From Flavobacteriaceae bacterium CG2_30_34_30 (lineage in GTDB: Bacteria > Bacteroidota > Bacteroidia > Flavobacteriales > Flavobacteriaceae): 58,915 bases of DNA. The position numbers were made by a program, and so were the translations under genes. Location: contig MNYN01000083.1 in NCBI GenBank assembly GCA_001873105.1, positions 1 through 58,915 of the forward strand, in the 5' to 3' direction. Below, in pieces: positions 17,523 through 58,915 of the stretch. The notes under the pieces were generated by a model that had not been told where the DNA came from, searched no databases, and worked only from the letters and a program-made list of their open reading frames with translations. Positions within the stretch are counted from its first letter, which is position 1. Every line of letters starts with the position of its first letter.

Positions 17523-18257
17523 TCAGAAAGATTTTATAGAACCCGATCCTGCAGTTTTCGTGTCTTTTATTCTAGGGTTCCCTTTGTAAACAATATCTCC
17601 TGAACCCGCTATTCTTGCTTTTAAATCTTCTGTGCATAGTACCATTATATCTCCGGAACCTGCAATAGAGACATCCGCTTTTTCAGTGCTTAAATTAAAC
17701 AGGTTTAAGTCGCCTGATCCGGCTAGTTTCCCGGTTAAGATGGTGGCTTTTCCTGCTAATTCAATATCGCCCGATCCAGCTACTTTTGTAAGTAAATTGG
17801 AAGTCTCAATCACAAGTTTTATGTCTCCTGACCCTGCTAGACTAACTTCCATATCTTCGCTTTTTAAATTCAAATTTTCTGTTCTAATATCGCCAGAACC
17901 AGCCAAGCTTATTACGGAAACAGATTGTACAGGTACAAGAACCTCTATTTTGTTATTTCGACTGGGTTTTAAATTGGTATTGTTTTCTGTTTTAATTACT
18001 AAGGAATTGCCGTTTACTTCAATTATTGTTACTTCTAATAAATTTTCTTCGCCTTTGATGGTTATTTGCCCTTCTTCCCCTTCTACAAGGGTTACAAAAT
18101 AAATTCCGGCGACTGCTATTTTATCATAATCGGTTGTTTTTATGGTTTTTGTAATCACATTACCATTTCCTGAAACTGTTTTATTTCTTAATTGTGCTTG
18201 TGTGGTGATTACAAAAAAGAAAAGAAAAAGACTCGTATAAATTTTTAGATTTTTCAT
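17523..18257 (-). CDS. head GIN domain protein (DUF2807), exported beta-helix repeat protein
   Basis: 244 residues with a signal peptide (about 1-21). The C-terminal half carries seven copies of AGSGD or AGSGS at residues 119, 141, 160, 179, 199, 217 and 236, a spacing of 18-22 residues that fits one rung each of a right-handed parallel beta-helix. This is the 'putative auto-transporter adhesin, head GIN domain' family. It lies 70 nt downstream of the DUF4097-like gene on the same strand and may belong to the sigma-factor operon. It is probably periplasmic or surface-exposed. The adhesin label is by family name only. Confidence 0.85.
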   Translation of the reverse strand: MKNLKIYTSLFLFFFVITTQAQLRNKTVSGNGNVITKTIKTTDYDKIAVAGIYFVTLVEGEEGQITIKGEENLLEVTIIEVNGNSLVIKTENNTNLKPSRNNKIEVLVPVQSVSVISLAGSGDIRTENLNLKSEDMEVSLAGSGDIKLVIETSNLLTKVAGSGDIELAGKATILTGKLAGSGDLNLFNLSTEKADVSIAGSGDIMVLCTEDLKARIAGSGDIVYKGNPRIKDTKTAGSGSIKSF

Positions 18258-34002: not shown

Positions 34003-34449
34003 ATGGCAAAATCACAACAAACATACAACAAGAACGAAAGAGAAAAGCTTAAACAAAAGCGTAAAGAAGATAAAGATAAAAGAAAACGCGAAAAGAAAGA
34101 CAATCCTGAAAAAACAAGCTACGATATGTATGCTTATGTAGATGAATATGGAAATTTATCTTCTACACCAATGGATCCTTCAAAGAAAATTAAAATAAAC
34201 GCAGAGGATATTGAGCTTGGTGTTCCAAAACGAGAGCCGGAAGAAAAAGAAGATCCCATTAAAAAAGGAAAAATTTCTTTTTTCAATACCGAAAAAGGCT
34301 ATGGTTTTATAAAATTAGAAAACTCTGAAGATAGTGTCTTTGTTCATGTTAATGGACTTATTGACAGTGTAAAAGAAAATGATAAAGTGGTGTTTGAAGT
34401 GGAGCAAGGAATGAAAGGACTTAATGCAATCAATGTCAAACTACAGTAA
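34003..34449 (+). CDS. cold-shock-domain protein with lysine-rich N-terminal extension
   Basis: 148 residues. The C-terminal part (about 87-148) is a cold-shock/OB-fold domain with RNP1 (KGYGFIK) and RNP2 (VFVHVN), so it should bind single-stranded RNA or DNA. The first 40 residues are very basic and helical (KRKEDKDKRKREKKD), followed by an acidic linker. Most CspA proteins are about 70 residues and lack such an extension, so this is a fused or extended type that may add nonspecific RNA or ribosome binding. A terminator follows directly. Confidence 0.88.
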   Translation: MAKSQQTYNKNEREKLKQKRKEDKDKRKREKKDNPEKTSYDMYAYVDEYGNLSSTPMDPSKKIKINAEDIELGVPKREPEEKEDPIKKGKISFFNTEKGYGFIKLENSEDSVFVHVNGLIDSVKENDKVVFEVEQGMKGLNAINVKLQ

Positions 34450-46000: not shown

Positions 46001-46747
46001 TTAACGATACTCCGGATTTTCAAAATTCCATCTAGTGCCATCATCCCATTCTTTCCTGGAGTTTCCATAAGCTGGATATCCACCCTGATCTTTCAGCATT
46101 TTAGCAAGATGTAAAAGATTATAAGTCATAAAAGTGGTATTTCTATTGGTAAATTCAGAATTAATGCCAACGGGAGGGTCTATTTTTTTACCATTCCATT
46201 CGGTATCTCCGTAACTTGGACCGGGTCCTACTTCACCAATCCAACCGGCATCTGCTTGTGGCGGAATGCTGTATCCTAAGTGTTGTAGGGCATATAAAAT
46301 TCCCATGGCGCAATGTTTAACGCCATCTTCATTACCGGTTATAATACAACCCCCGGCTTTCCCATAATAGACATATTGTCCTTTTTCATTCTGTAAGCCA
46401 CTCATGGCATAAAGACGCTCTATAAGTTTTGAAGCTATAGAAGATCGTTCCCCCAACCAAATGGGTGAACCTATGATGAGAATATTTGCCTTCTTAATTT
46501 TTTTATAAATTTTAGGCCATGCATCTGTTGTTTCTCCTTCTTTCGTCATGTCTGGCTGAACGCCAACGGGGATGTCATAATCTACAAGACGGATGGTTTC
46601 CACTTCTACACCTTCAGATTTCATGATTTGCTTGGAAACATCCATCAATCCTTGTGTGTGACTTAGTGTAGGTGATTTTTTTAAGGTGCAGTTTACAAAA
46701 ACGGCTTTGAGTTTAGTAAAATCTGGATTCTGGGTGTTCTTTTTCAT
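46001..46747 (-). CDS. flavodoxin-like NAD(P)H-dependent oxidoreductase
   Basis: 248 residues with a flavodoxin-like FMN-binding fold: AVFVNCTLKKSPTLSHTQGL at the phosphate-binding start and ILIIGSPIWLGERSSIASKL at the isoalloxazine loop, as in NADPH-dependent FMN reductases and WrbA-like quinone reductases. Cytosolic. First gene of an apparent four-gene operon with the FNT channel, AhpD-like protein and FAD disulfide reductase. A promoter with near-ideal spacing lies 60 nt upstream. Confidence 0.87.
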   Translation of the reverse strand: MKKNTQNPDFTKLKAVFVNCTLKKSPTLSHTQGLMDVSKQIMKSEGVEVETIRLVDYDIPVGVQPDMTKEGETTDAWPKIYKKIKKANILIIGSPIWLGERSSIASKLIERLYAMSGLQNEKGQYVYYGKAGGCIITGNEDGVKHCAMGILYALQHLGYSIPPQADAGWIGEVGPGPSYGDTEWNGKKIDPPVGINSEFTNRNTTFMTYNLLHLAKMLKDQGGYPAYGNSRKEWDDGTRWNFENPEYR

Positions 46748-56036: not shown

Positions 56037-57326
56037 ATGATGAAAAATACACCTTGTGTTGCAGTGATTGGTCTTGGCTATGTTGGCCTTCCTTTAGCCG
56101 TTGAATTTGCAAAAAAATATCCCACCATTGGATTTGATATCAACAAAAAACGTGTTGACGAATTAAATCAGGGCAAAGATTTTACGTTGGAGGTAGAAGA
56201 GCAGGATTTAAAAAGTGTCCTTAAACGCACAACGAGCAACGGTCTTTTAATCACCGATTCACCAGATACTTTAGCGCAAGCAAACCGATATATAGTAACC
56301 GTGCCCACACCAACCGATAAACACAACCAACCCATATTAACTCCATTAATAAAAGCTAGTGAAACCATAGGGGCTTATTTAAAAAAGGGAGACATTGTTA
56401 TTTATGAATCTACCGTATATCCTGGCGTTACTGAAGATATTTGTGTTCCAGTTTTAGAACGATTTTCCGGACTTACTTTTAATACCGATTTTTTTGCAGG
56501 CTATTCGCCGGAACGAATTAATCCGGGAGACAAATTGCACACCGTAACTAAAATCCTAAAAGTTACTTCCGGGTCAACACCTGAAGCAGCAAAAATGGTT
56601 GATGATTTGTACAAATCTATTATCACTGCGGGTACACATTTAGCGCCTTCTATAAAAGTAGCGGAGGCAGCAAAAGTTATTGAAAATTCGCAACGTGACA
56701 TTAATATTGCTTTTGTTAATGAACTTTCAAAAATATTTAGATTGCTTGAAATTGATACCCAAGCAGTTTTAGAAGCAGCGGGCACCAAATGGAATTTTTT
56801 AAAATTTAGTCCCGGTTTGGTTGGTGGGCATTGTATAGGGGTGGATCCATATTATTTGGCACAAAAAGCAGTAGAGGAGGGGTACAATCCTGAAATCATA
56901 TTAGCAGGAAGACGATTGAACGACAGTATGGGCAGTTATGTGGCTACCGAAACGGTAAAATTAATGATACAAAAAGATGCCAAAGTAAAAGGGGGAACCG
57001 TTTTGATTTTAGGAATCACCTTTAAAGAAAATTGCCCCGACATTCGAAATACCAAAGTGATAGATGTGATTAATGAATTTAAAAAATACAATCTAACGAT
57101 AGATGTGTATGACCCTTGGGCAAATGCCGAAGAAGTAGCACACGAGTATAATATTTCTCTAGTGCATGAAAAATCGCAATTAAAAACCGATTATGATGCG
57201 GTAGTTTTAGCAGTTTCTCATCAGCAGTTTAACGATTTTAAAATAGAAAACTATTGTAACAGAAATGCAGTTGTTTTTGATGTGAAATCGTTTTTACCCA
57301 TCGATAAAATTGACGGAAGATTATGA
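56037..57326 (+). CDS. tviB: UDP-N-acetyl-D-glucosamine 6-dehydrogenase (TviB/WbpO-like)
   Basis: Oxidises UDP-GlcNAc (or UDP-GalNAc) to the uronic acid with two NAD+. 429 residues from the paired ATGs at 56037/56040; a longer TTG-initiated frame from 55950 runs into the intergenic region and is rejected. NAD-binding IGLGYVGLPLAVEF at the N-terminus, the YSPERINPGDK block, and the catalytic cysteine in GGHCIGVDPYYLAQKA. The sequence closely recalls Salmonella TviB. Its stop overlaps the start of the epimerase gene. Together they supply UDP-GalNAcA for a capsule or O-antigen. Confidence 0.9.
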   Translation: MMKNTPCVAVIGLGYVGLPLAVEFAKKYPTIGFDINKKRVDELNQGKDFTLEVEEQDLKSVLKRTTSNGLLITDSPDTLAQANRYIVTVPTPTDKHNQPILTPLIKASETIGAYLKKGDIVIYESTVYPGVTEDICVPVLERFSGLTFNTDFFAGYSPERINPGDKLHTVTKILKVTSGSTPEAAKMVDDLYKSIITAGTHLAPSIKVAEAAKVIENSQRDINIAFVNELSKIFRLLEIDTQAVLEAAGTKWNFLKFSPGLVGGHCIGVDPYYLAQKAVEEGYNPEIILAGRRLNDSMGSYVATETVKLMIQKDAKVKGGTVLILGITFKENCPDIRNTKVIDVINEFKKYNLTIDVYDPWANAEEVAHEYNISLVHEKSQLKTDYDAVVLAVSHQQFNDFKIENYCNRNAVVFDVKSFLPIDKIDGRL

Positions 57327-58306
57327 TGTACACTCACAAATACCAAGAGCAAGACCTTTCAAAATACGCCTTTTTAGTTACAGGTGGTGCAGGCTTTATT
57401 GGATCAAATATTGTAGAATATTTACTTAAGAATAACGCTAAAAAGGTACGTGTTCTTGACAACCTTGCCACAGGGTTTTTGAAAAACATGGAAGCTTTTC
57501 AATTTCATCCCGCATTTGAATTTTTAGAAGGTGATATTCGTGATTTGGATACCTGTAAAAAAGCGATGAAAGGTATAGATTATGTATCGCATCAAGCGGC
57601 TTTAGGCTCTGTACCTCGTTCTATTGAAAATCCAATATTAACTAATGACGTTAATGTAGGCGGGTTTTTAAATATACTGGTGGCTCAAAAGGAAAGCCCA
57701 ACAGTAAAGCGGTTGGTATATGCTGCTTCCAGTTCCACCTATGGCGATAGTCCTACATTGCCAAAAGTAGAGGACAACATAGGAAAACCATTGTCACCCT
57801 ATGCAGTAACTAAGTTGGTGAATGAGCTATACGCTGATGTGTTTTACAAAACCTACAAAACACCTACTATTGGGTTGCGGTATTTTAATGTATTCGGACC
57901 AAAACAAAGTCCTACAGGTGCTTATGCCGCTGTCATTCCACTCTTTATGCAATCCCTAAAAGACGGTAAAGCTCCCACCATTCATGGTGATGGCGAGCAA
58001 ACGCGTGATTTTACTTTTGTAGAAAATGCGGTGCAAGCTAATTTGCGGGCTCTTTTTGCTCCTGAAAAGGCCATTAATCAAGTGTATAACGTGGCGTATG
58101 GAGAGCGAATAAGCCTAAATAGCTTGTGGAATGAATTGCAAGAAATCGCCAAAATAAAACTAGATGCTGTCTACGGTTCAAACAGAGCCGGTGATGTGCG
58201 CGACTCGCTAGCAGATATTAGCAAAGCTAAAAAACAATTGGACTACAAACCTCGCTTTAGTGTGCGAGAAGGTTTAGAAAAAACGTGGAATTTATTTTCA
58301 TCTTGA
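57323..58306 (+). CDS. tviC: UDP-N-acetylglucosamine 4-epimerase family (TviC/WbpP-like)
   Basis: 327-residue extended short-chain dehydrogenase. NAD-binding VTGGAGFIGSNIVEYLL, AALGSVPRSIENP, catalytic Ser in YAASSSTYGD and the YxxxK pair in SPYAVTKLVNELYADVF, then LRYFNVFGPKQSPTGAYAAVI, which are hallmarks of TviC/WbpP. It interconverts the C4 epimers of UDP-GlcNAc(A). It overlaps tviB by 4 nt (ATGA). It is the last gene in the window before the repeat region. Confidence 0.9.
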   Translation: MMYTHKYQEQDLSKYAFLVTGGAGFIGSNIVEYLLKNNAKKVRVLDNLATGFLKNMEAFQFHPAFEFLEGDIRDLDTCKKAMKGIDYVSHQAALGSVPRSIENPILTNDVNVGGFLNILVAQKESPTVKRLVYAASSSTYGDSPTLPKVEDNIGKPLSPYAVTKLVNELYADVFYKTYKTPTIGLRYFNVFGPKQSPTGAYAAVIPLFMQSLKDGKAPTIHGDGEQTRDFTFVENAVQANLRALFAPEKAINQVYNVAYGERISLNSLWNELQEIAKIKLDAVYGSNRAGDVRDSLADISKAKKQLDYKPRFSVREGLEKTWNLFSS

Positions 58307-58312
58307 TTTTTC

Positions 58313-58337
58313 ATAAACATTTGACCCCGCTGGGGTC
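58313..58337 (+). repeat. hairpin repeat element, plus orientation, copy 1
   Basis: ATAAACATTT followed by the perfect hairpin GACCCC-GCT-GGGGTC, starting 7 nt after the tviC stop codon. It belongs to the same family as the elements at 58360, 58402 and 58453 and, inverted, the tandem array. Confidence 0.85.
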
Positions 58338-58359
58338 TTCTTTTGTTTTTCGATTTTTT

Positions 58360-58378
58360 ATAAACCTCGCTGGGGTTT
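58360..58378 (+). repeat. hairpin repeat element, plus orientation, degenerate copy 2
   Basis: ATAAACCTCGCTGGGGTTT: the ATAAAC lead runs straight into a shortened hairpin with stem AAACCTC/GGGGTTT (one G-T pair) and loop GCT. The linker ATTTG is missing. Confidence 0.6.
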
Positions 58379-58401
58379 TTTGATAACAAACCAAAAATTC
58401 T

Positions 58402-58426
58402 ATAAACATTTGACCCCTCAGGGGTC
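58402..58426 (+). repeat. hairpin repeat element, plus orientation, copy 3
   Basis: ATAAACATTT then GACCCC-TCA-GGGGTC. The stem is identical to copy 1; only the loop differs. Confidence 0.85.
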
Positions 58427-58452
58427 CTCGTGTGGTGCTAATTTGATTTTCT

Positions 58453-58477
58453 ATAAACGTTTGACCCCTCTGGGGTC
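58453..58477 (+). repeat. hairpin repeat element, plus orientation, copy 4
   Basis: ATAAACGTTT then GACCCC-TCT-GGGGTC. Same stem, one change in the lead, different loop. Confidence 0.85.
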
Positions 58478-58514
58478 ATATTTGCCTTTCGTTATTTTCT
58501 TCTATAATGTTGTT

Positions 58515-58915
58515 GAACCCAGCGGGTTCCAATGTGTATAACAAAAGAAGGATACATTGAAAGGAACCCAGCGGGTTCCAATGTGTATAGCAAAAGAAGA
58601 ATACATTGAAAGGAACCCAGCAGGTTCCAATGTTTATAACAAAAGAAGGATACATTGAAAGGAACCCAGCGGGTTCCAATGTGTATAGAAAAGAAGAATA
58701 GATTGAAAGGAACCCAGCAGGTTTCAATGTTTATAACAAAAGAAGAATACATTGAAAGGAACCCAGCGGGTTCCAAAGTTTATAGCAAAAGAAGGATATA
58801 TTGAAAGGAACCCAGCAGGTTCCAATGTTTATAACAAAAGAAGGATACATTGAAAGGAACCCAGCGGGTTCCAATGTGTATAGAAAAGAAGAATAGATTG
58901 AAAGGAACCCAGCAG
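58515..58915 (-). repeat. tandem array of palindromic repeats, 49-bp period, runs off the window
   Basis: Eight full units and part of a ninth begin at 58515, 58564, 58613, 58662, 58710, 58759, 58808, 58857 and 58905, so the period is 49 bp, or 48 where one C is lost. Each unit has the hairpin GGAACCC-AGC-GGGTTCC (first unit slightly shorter) and a conserved linker. Units 3, 5, 7 and 9 carry AGCAGG instead of AGCGGG. The segments 58613-58720 and 58808-58915 are identical over 108 bp, so a 195-bp, four-unit higher-order repeat exists. Read on the minus strand, each unit begins ATAAACATT or ATACACATT, like the plus-orientation elements. It is not CRISPR, because the linkers are not unique. Confidence 0.9.

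Follow-up and report, generated by a model that had tools for sequence, protein, structure and literature searches.

A tandem hairpin array in a Flavobacteriaceae genome as a probable cluster of REP-like substrates of a subclass-1.2 Y1 transposase

A tandem array of short hairpins at the end of a contig from Flavobacteriaceae bacterium CG2_30_34_30 is most probably a cluster of REP-like single-stranded DNA (ssDNA) hairpin substrates of a subclass-1.2 Y1 (HUH-tyrosine) transposase, TnpA, and we place the probability of this reading at about 0.78. The window, by which we mean the whole stretch of DNA analyzed (58,915 bp), is the entire contig C17 of a 2.54-Mb genome assembled into 88 contigs. 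The original prediction from this sequence had assigned the array a possible role in transcription, mRNA stability, or recombination. This proposal proved too general: the strongest correlate of the hairpins is a Y1 HUH transposase gene (tnpA), both in the same genome and at 65 of 80 other loci.

RESULTS

Two opposed sets of hairpins at the contig end

The tandem array proposed in the original prediction is real. TRF reports a 49-bp period over 58515-58913 with 8.2 copies (score, 644), and eight complete units start at 58515, 58564, 58613, 58662, 58710, 58759, 58808, and 58857. The unit length of 49 bp holds for most of them, the fourth and eighth (starts 58662 and 58857) being 48 bp long. A ninth unit starts at 58905 and shows its first 11 bases before the contig ends, so the array does run past the window, as had been claimed; the eight complete units are the visible part only of an array whose full length lies beyond the contig. 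Exact comparison confirmed that 58613-58720 equals 58808-58915 at all 108 bases. The corresponding 195-bp block is composed of 49 + 48 + 49 + 49 bp, and TRF periods of 98 and 195 bp, which span 58515-58915, score higher (721 and 746) than the 49-bp period. The proposal that the array grew by copying of single units as well as of blocks of four is supported. The claimed alternation of AGCGGG and AGCAGG variants holds only from unit 2 onward, since units 1 and 2 both carry AGCGGG. Folding computation indicates that the window units form hairpins as ssDNA, with a 7-bp stem (6 bp in unit 1) and a 3-nt loop in the AGCGGG units and a 6-bp stem and 5-nt loop in the AGCAGG units 3 and 7. The features at this contig end are as follows, where R1 is a covariance model described below.

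57323-58306, plus strand: flanking gene of the NAD-dependent epimerase/dehydratase family (Pfam PF01370 and PF16363), named tviC in the original prediction
58307-58341, plus strand: type A tagged hairpin, the edge unit adjoining the epimerase gene (R1, 28.1 bits, E = 0.0036)
58396-58430, plus strand: type A tagged hairpin (R1, 38.9 bits, E = 3.7e-5)
58447-58481, plus strand: type A tagged hairpin (R1, 42.5 bits, E = 8.1e-6 in the window)
58482-58514, no strand: type A/type B junction, similar to the one that adjoins tnpA on contig C46 (from a pairwise alignment of the two contigs)
58515-58915, minus strand (hairpins with the tag read first): type B tandem array (TRF, unit table, and eight R1 matches with E of 0.00024 to 0.013)
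58613-58807, no strand: 195-bp higher-order block, the first 108 bases of which recur exactly at 58808-58915

The three type A hairpins (58307-58481; GACCCC...GGGGTC), which the original prediction omitted, precede the array in the orientation opposite to that of type B and belong to one feature with it. The edge unit at 58307-58341 has the layout ATAAACAT-tt-GACCCC-gct-GGGGTC and is preceded by TC, not CT; the unit at 58447-58481 is the top R1 match of both the window and its genome (the best of at least 43). The epimerase gene is thought to be a neighbor outside the hairpin system. Elsewhere in the window, TRF marks an A-rich tandem repeat at 34019-34097 (period, 25; 2.9 copies) that overlaps the open reading frame (ORF) at 34003-34449.

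There is no sign of a coding role, in agreement with the original argument that the array period is not a multiple of 3, and ORFs of 78 amino acids (aa) across the hairpins on C46 were taken as chance. A CRISPR array was rejected because the whole 49-bp unit repeats, linker included, with no unique spacers. An Rfam search of eight sources gave four matches at E ≤ 1 (one tRNA and three under the gathering score), none of which covers an array family. At the locus L109, a weak match to the Rfam Flavo-1 RNA (33.8 bits versus a gathering score of 42) lies at 2863-2946, downstream of the hairpin array.

The array family adjoins tnpA in the same genome

A whole-genome search for the array unit, which the original prediction had proposed as a check, found copies at other sites: BLAST matches lie close to the beginning of contigs C46 and C81, with others scattered on C63, C18, and C31. 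A Pfam search of the whole genome for Y1 transposases identified two genes, both of them on C46 beside the array. The order on C46 is tnpA (153 aa, minus strand), type A, type B, and then a second copy of this 972-bp block; the two block copies are identical up to position 957, and both tnpA copies are flanked by the same A-plus-B hairpin arrangement as in the window. Across the A-to-B junction, the window aligns with C46 over about 163 columns, yet C17 carries the epimerase gene at the place where C46 carries tnpA. From this alignment, we take the visible window array to be a tnpA-less member of the C46 hairpin family. A comparison with the related genome G001 gave no support to the idea that the bases right of the C46 array are the end of a disrupted glycosyltransferase gene.

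Across the whole genome, R1 has at least 43 matches at E ≤ 1 on C17, C46, C81, C31, C63, C18, and C58, a lower bound for which 150 of 1,124 first-look candidates were scored. Tagged units also stand at intergenic sites without tnpA, some of which retain a leftover of its 3' end. At C18:46399-46599, a tnpA 3'-end relic of 58 bp (86% identical to C46:4-61) lies between type B and type A units, and a shorter relic lies beside the units on C63. These two sites are not orthologous and share a mosaic of 386 columns, with 270 of 312 aligned bases identical. At both of them, a different palindrome family (GTCCCAGCGGGAC) is intermingled with these units (C18, approximately 46280-46350; C63, approximately 17565-17640). 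Its own tag, read toward the hairpin, is TTTTCTACCGATAT, and because a similar tag is found at a distant tnpA locus (L175), this second family may belong to another enzyme.

The location beside a surface polysaccharide locus, emphasized in the original prediction, looks incidental. Polysaccharide-type genes do adjoin two array sites, C17 (UDP-sugar dehydrogenase and epimerase) and C81 (glycosyltransferases), but other sites lie beside a GARS purine synthesis gene (C31) and a rhodanese-like gene (C63), and the C18 site follows consecutive genes of about 388, 1,050, and 471 aa that we take, from gene size and order only, to be an efflux set. These neighbors do not support a specific association with polysaccharide loci.

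Tagged hairpins accompany related tnpA genes

From a scan of GTDB genomes for TnpA relatives, we used the best 80 of 140 (66 to 81% identity), mostly from Bacteroidota with a few records labeled otherwise; the reading frame is open over the match in 75 of the 80 loci. Close tnpA relatives with tagged hairpins also occur at L051, L053, L057, L063, and L064, in records labeled Falkowbacteria, Ignavibacteriae, Anaerolineales, and Chloroflexi; the cause may be horizontal transfer or wrong binning.

Within 250 bp of tnpA, the density of hairpins with a stem of 6 or more and a loop of 3 reaches 5.6 per kb before the gene and 6.5 per kb after it, compared with 0.06 to 0.48 per kb beyond 1.5 kb. The commonest 8-mers flanking the near hairpins spell TTCTATAAACAT, and CTATAAAC is present at 104 of 370 near hairpins versus 11 of 93 others. 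To avoid selection for hairpins, a further count was anchored on the tag CTATAAACAT with up to one mismatch. Such tags number 268 within 800 bp of tnpA versus 25 beyond 1.5 kb (the interval from 800 bp to 1.5 kb was left out). A hairpin follows 203 of the 268 near tags, versus 1.8% in shuffles, and 10 of the 25 far tags, and in 173 of the 203 tagged hairpins, a 3-nt loop occupies one fixed place. The format of CTATAAACAT, 2 nt, a 6-bp stem, and a 3-nt loop was found within 800 bp at 65 of the 80 loci, with two or more tagged hairpins at 54. Stated more generally, a unit consists of the tag consensus TTTTCTATAAACAT, 2 nt, a stem of 6 to 8 bp with sequence variation in both arms, and a loop that is usually 3 nt long. 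Fifteen loci have no tagged hairpin within 800 bp; at 7 of these, one side extends for less than 800 bp, and 8 have repeated hairpins that lack the exact tag, the two groups overlapping.

Tagged units lie only upstream of the gene at 23 loci, only downstream at 21, and on both sides at 21. Units within 60 bp of tnpA face it almost without exception (13/13 upstream and 16/17 downstream). The commonest neighbor pair is hairpin-tag followed by tag-hairpin, with the tags about 80 to 85 bp apart (41 pairs), and at several loci, a third, untagged hairpin stands between the paired units.

One alternative is that the hairpins are transcription terminators or mRNA 3'-end stabilizers placed after operons and that the array is an overgrown terminator. 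The array does come after a gene, and 57200-58915 contains 8 terminator-like matches versus 1.6 expected, and 7 of the 8 coincide with these hairpins. However, AT-rich shuffles yield few GC stems, so this count partly restates the presence of hairpins, and promoter-like matches are not enriched (3 versus 5.1). A terminator also fits poorly with units in both orientations and leaves unexplained the conserved tag at a fixed distance and the concentration of hairpins at one gene family. We therefore regard this explanation as improbable; if the hairpins are substrates of TnpA, any effect on neighboring transcripts would be secondary.

Stem pairing is kept while stem sequence varies

Covariation was assessed in 127 distinct units without N, at most two per locus, that had been picked by their tag and not by their hairpin; they align without gaps. 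Standard pairs fill 85.6% of 889 pair cells versus 63.9% in shuffles. All 7 pairs have changes on both sides, a coarse measure that 126 of 500 shuffles reach too. Cells with a double change number 207 versus 62.6 in shuffles, and the covariation score is 0.575 versus 0.183, neither value being reached in any of the 500 shuffles; with the register slid, the score falls to 0.076 to 0.141. Stem pairing is kept while the stem sequence varies, with strong compensatory change.

R1 is the covariance model of these 127 units, none of which comes from the source genome of the window. It matches 11 units in the window, the 8 complete array units and the 3 type A hairpins, at E values of 8e-6 to 0.013, and it gives one weak match (E = 0.4) elsewhere in the 58.9 kb at E up to 1. 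Because a model trained on other genomes matches them, the window units are not a chance occurrence.

TnpA is a Y1 HUH transposase with subclass-1.2 motifs

The C46 TnpA protein (153 aa) contains the motifs NHIH, WQ, and YIMNQKEHH. In the survey by Quentin et al. (2018, PMC6006769), the Y---Q--HH signature marks subclass 1.2 of TnpAY1, and the HUH consensus is given as DH[IV]H. By its motifs, we assign our protein to the subclass-1.2 type. Y[IVL]..Q..HH is found at 77 of the 80 related loci and HUH at all 80, with NHIH in place of the published consensus in our protein and in 24 of the 80 matches. An alignment of our protein with 35 of the related ones (36 in all) has H55, H57, Y115, Q119, H122, and H123 invariant, along with W95 and Q96. 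The protein passes the NCBIfam IS200/IS605 transposase model NF033573 narrowly (56.8 bits; cutoff, 55), falls far below the cutoff of the RAYT profile NF047646 (24.3 bits; cutoff, 80), and has YIMNQ at the position of the RAYT motif Y...NP.

The single TnpA sequence matched no PDB sequence at 1e-3; a profile retrieved eight, including IS608 and ISDra2. An AlphaFold2 model from the 36-protein alignment (pLDDT, 90.2; pTM, 0.84) gave 30 Foldseek matches in the PDB at E ≤ 0.001, all of them transposase entries with query TM scores of 0.55 to 0.61. The top matches are ISDra2 and IS608; many of the matched structures have bound end hairpins (IS608 and ISDra2), and the RAYT 4er8 is present with its REP. 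Phage records contained no TnpA relative at 1e-30, and plasmid records contained one, from Bernardetia.

These similarities raise the alternative that tnpA and its hairpins are an ordinary IS200/IS605 insertion sequence, the hairpins being its ends multiplied by tandem insertion. The narrow pass of the IS200/IS605 cutoff, the predicted fold in common with the TnpA proteins of IS608 and ISDra2, and the two identical tandem tnpA copies on C46 would fit such an element. Set against this, the other tnpA copies in the genus are only 45 to 76% identical, the hairpins form multi-unit arrays with differing stems, either on one side of tnpA or on both, and also stand at sites without it, and the nearest units face the gene from both sides at only 8 of the 80 loci. 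An ordinary insertion sequence is, in our judgment, about as doubtful as an overgrown terminator.

Inheritance, unit turnover, and tnpA loss within the genus

R1 matches at E ≤ 1 were found in all five genomes of the genus: at least 43 in the source genome (G000), 28 in G001, 24 in G002, 10 in G004, and 4 in G003, which is the weakest (best E = 0.12). The source genome, G001, and G002 have tnpA, and the latter two include broken or partial copies; it was not found in G003 and G004 at E ≤ 1e-8. One orthologous intergenic site has two units in the source genome (C18:46425-46566) and five in G001 (C58:47098-47286). By the gene order of G001, C81 and C46 probably meet in the source genome. At the equivalent site in G001, two units are accompanied by about 55 bp from the tnpA 3' end with flank, and because this remnant persists, tnpA was probably once there and has since been lost. 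Orthologous sites therefore display inheritance, unit turnover, and tnpA loss; among those compared in the genus, there was no clean pair of empty and filled sites.

The hairpins are spread unevenly. All listed R1 matches of G002 lie on one 330-kb contig (C2) and all of those of G004 on its C6, which suggests that the spread in these genomes is local, not genome-wide. It is wider in the source genome and in G318, a genome in one contig with at least 17 R1 matches at several distant places. At 192969-194169 of the G004 contig (L201) is an array with a spacing of about 179 bp; G001 has tnpA at that site (C71), and no tnpA was found in G004 at E ≤ 1e-8. The 3' ends of rayt genes are built into BIMEs, and REPs accumulate near rayt in some species, according to Nunvar et al. 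(2010, PMC2817692). The clustering of the listed matches on one contig in G002 resembles that accumulation.

The possibility that the array is an assembly artifact, raised in the original prediction, does not apply to the sequence type, since units occur elsewhere in the genome and, at E up to 1, in all four other genomes of the genus that were searched. A broader form of this explanation is that the array is a passive tandem repeat grown by slippage, or an artifact, with the nearby tnpA a coincidence. The array stands at a contig end, its units are approximately 90% alike with exact blocks, as slippage gives, and slippage may indeed be the source of the 49-bp and 195-bp periods. However, the unit format recurs in other genomes with compensated stems, and the orthologous arrays of G001 stand inside contigs and have other unit numbers. 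We give this explanation slightly less weight than either of the two above.

Co-occurrence and variation of the tag

In a sample of 395 genomes across the phylum (tnpA at E ≤ 1e-40; R1 at E ≤ 0.05 with strict filters and 17 candidates scored per genome), tnpA was found in 92 and R1 in at least 40. R1 matches occur in 25 of the 92 genomes with tnpA versus 15 of the 303 without it (Fisher P = 2e-8), and in 7 of the 8 genomes in which the top tnpA match reaches 66% identity or more. Sixty-seven genomes with tnpA have no R1 match in this sample, and one genome (G465) has at least 15 R1 matches and no tnpA at E ≤ 1e-40. Among 196 genomes of the order, tnpA (E ≤ 1e-20) was found in 42 and R1 in 12, of which 7 were shared.

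At 27 loci with 50 to 63% identical tnpA, hairpins lie near the gene at 17, with two or more at 11 and none at the remaining 10. Of the 52 hairpins at these distant loci, 22 have TCTA no more than 20 nt away, versus 12.8% at random places, and several tags are visibly different (TTTCTATTGACAT, TTTCTACCGATGAG, and TTTCTACACAGCTA); tag types in different enzyme lineages include CTATAAACAT and CTACACAGCTA. We read this as the tag changing along with the enzyme, such that R1 misses distant hairpins. On the tnpA tree, tag variants require 24 changes versus 30.9 expected, and 0 of 500 shuffles are as low (66 of the 80 loci labeled, on a tree with few well-supported branches, 8 of 78 starred). This agreement may come from joint inheritance of gene and array alone.

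We lean toward a wider view, with less confidence than we hold for the array itself, in which subclass-1.2 TnpA enzymes are the partners of a large hairpin superfamily over Bacteroidota. The guide tag would have a TTTCTA core and a lineage-specific part (TAAACAT here; TTGACAT, CCGATGAG, and CACAGCTA in more remote relatives), tag and enzyme would change together, and stems would be free to vary as long as they pair. If this is true, guide coevolution in single-strand transposition could be tested directly with natural enzyme/tag pairs.

DISCUSSION

A mechanism consistent with these observations is that TnpA binds the hairpin as ssDNA, reads the tag much as IS200/IS605 and RAYT enzymes read guide sequences, and cuts at or near the boundary between CT and ATAAACAT before rejoining the ends. 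Units, or units with a piece of tnpA, would thereby be copied, joined head to tail, or moved. Once in tandem, the 49-bp units and the 195-bp block are probably amplified through slippage during replication or through unequal recombination, and these periods need only such processes; growth of the array is probably the product of one or the other together with TnpA action.

RAYTs cleave at a CT next to the REP, and the tag helps to choose the site in one system, as reported by Corneloup et al. (2021, PMC8266576). In our data, CT stands before ATAAACAT in most units. In the source genome, the breakpoint of the C46 copy and the flanks of array edges that border other DNA start directly before ATAAACAT, and none of the eight edge units, one of which looks like a chance match, has CT; the TT at one of these edges is also present in inner units. 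Within the genus, CT precedes 7 of 18 edge units versus 35 of 46 inner units (P = 0.008). At the 80 loci, the corresponding values are 39 of 57 and 181 of 231, a difference that is not significant (P = 0.12). We hold putative cleavage between CT and A with moderate confidence; the genus supports it and the 80-locus set does so not clearly.

The DNA substrate of subclass 1.2 was left open by the 2018 survey. A candidate is now defined by its tag, its register, and the stem changes that it permits, which makes binding and cleavage assays straightforward, and dozens of natural enzyme/tag pairs allow tests of how guide sequences change. The hairpin system would also explain why repeats of this type stand at several contig ends in the assembly.

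Compared with the IS200/IS605 elements IS608 and ISDra2, the system has a similar HUH-Y1 fold, by its model, the HUH and Y...Q motifs, and hairpins with a sequence 5' of the foot. It differs in having arrays of many hairpins and tnpA-less copies, whereas an insertion sequence is a single element bounded by left and right ends. Near-identical dispersed complete elements were not found in the genus, with one genome per species compared, and the only such copies in the source genome are the C46 tandem pair.

With TnpAY1 subclass 1.2 as described by Quentin et al. (2018, PMC6006769), our enzyme shares Y...Q..HH, WQ, a length of about 150 aa (listed as approximately 148), low copy number, and an occurrence in Bacteroidetes. 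That survey places the subclass near IS200 transposases but without properties of insertion sequences, typical IS ends, or REPs (REP "no" in Table 1), whereas tagged hairpins flank the gene here. The automatic REP search of the same survey relied on GTAG/GTGG tags. In the open-access full-text literature, to which our search was confined, we found no REP-like elements assigned to subclass 1.2.

The GTAG- and CGTC-tagged repeats of Di Nocera et al. (2013, PMC3733652) are likewise small, tagged, intergenic palindromes, and those tagged with CGTC are present in some Bacteroidetes. The tag here is neither of the two, and the hairpins adjoin a transposase gene, unlike the CGTC repeats as that paper presents them.

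The closest counterpart is the RAYT (TnpAREP)/REP/BIME system, or "REPtron" (Nunvar et al. 2010, PMC2817692; Quentin et al. 2018, PMC6006769; Corneloup et al. 2021, PMC8266576). In both systems, short palindromes that carry a conserved tag on the 5' side of the stem adjoin a Y1 HUH gene and recur at other places in the genome (here at least 43 R1 matches on seven contigs). In both, they stand in tandem and inverted arrangements, and paired changes maintain their stems. The tnpA 3' ends in the repeat clusters also parallel the rayt 3' ends of Nunvar et al. (2010, PMC2817692). The differences are a tag of CTATAAACAT and near variants (others in distant relatives) instead of GT[AG]G, an enzyme with Y...Q..HH instead of Y...NP that fails the RAYT profile cutoff, and copy numbers in the tens (as lower bounds) instead of hundreds. 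Because the enzyme lacks both the RAYT motif and a RAYT profile match, and the tag is not GTAG, we set the system apart within the REP/RAYT kind. On its anatomy, the best reading is that it works like RAYT/REP with a different tag and a different enzyme subclass.
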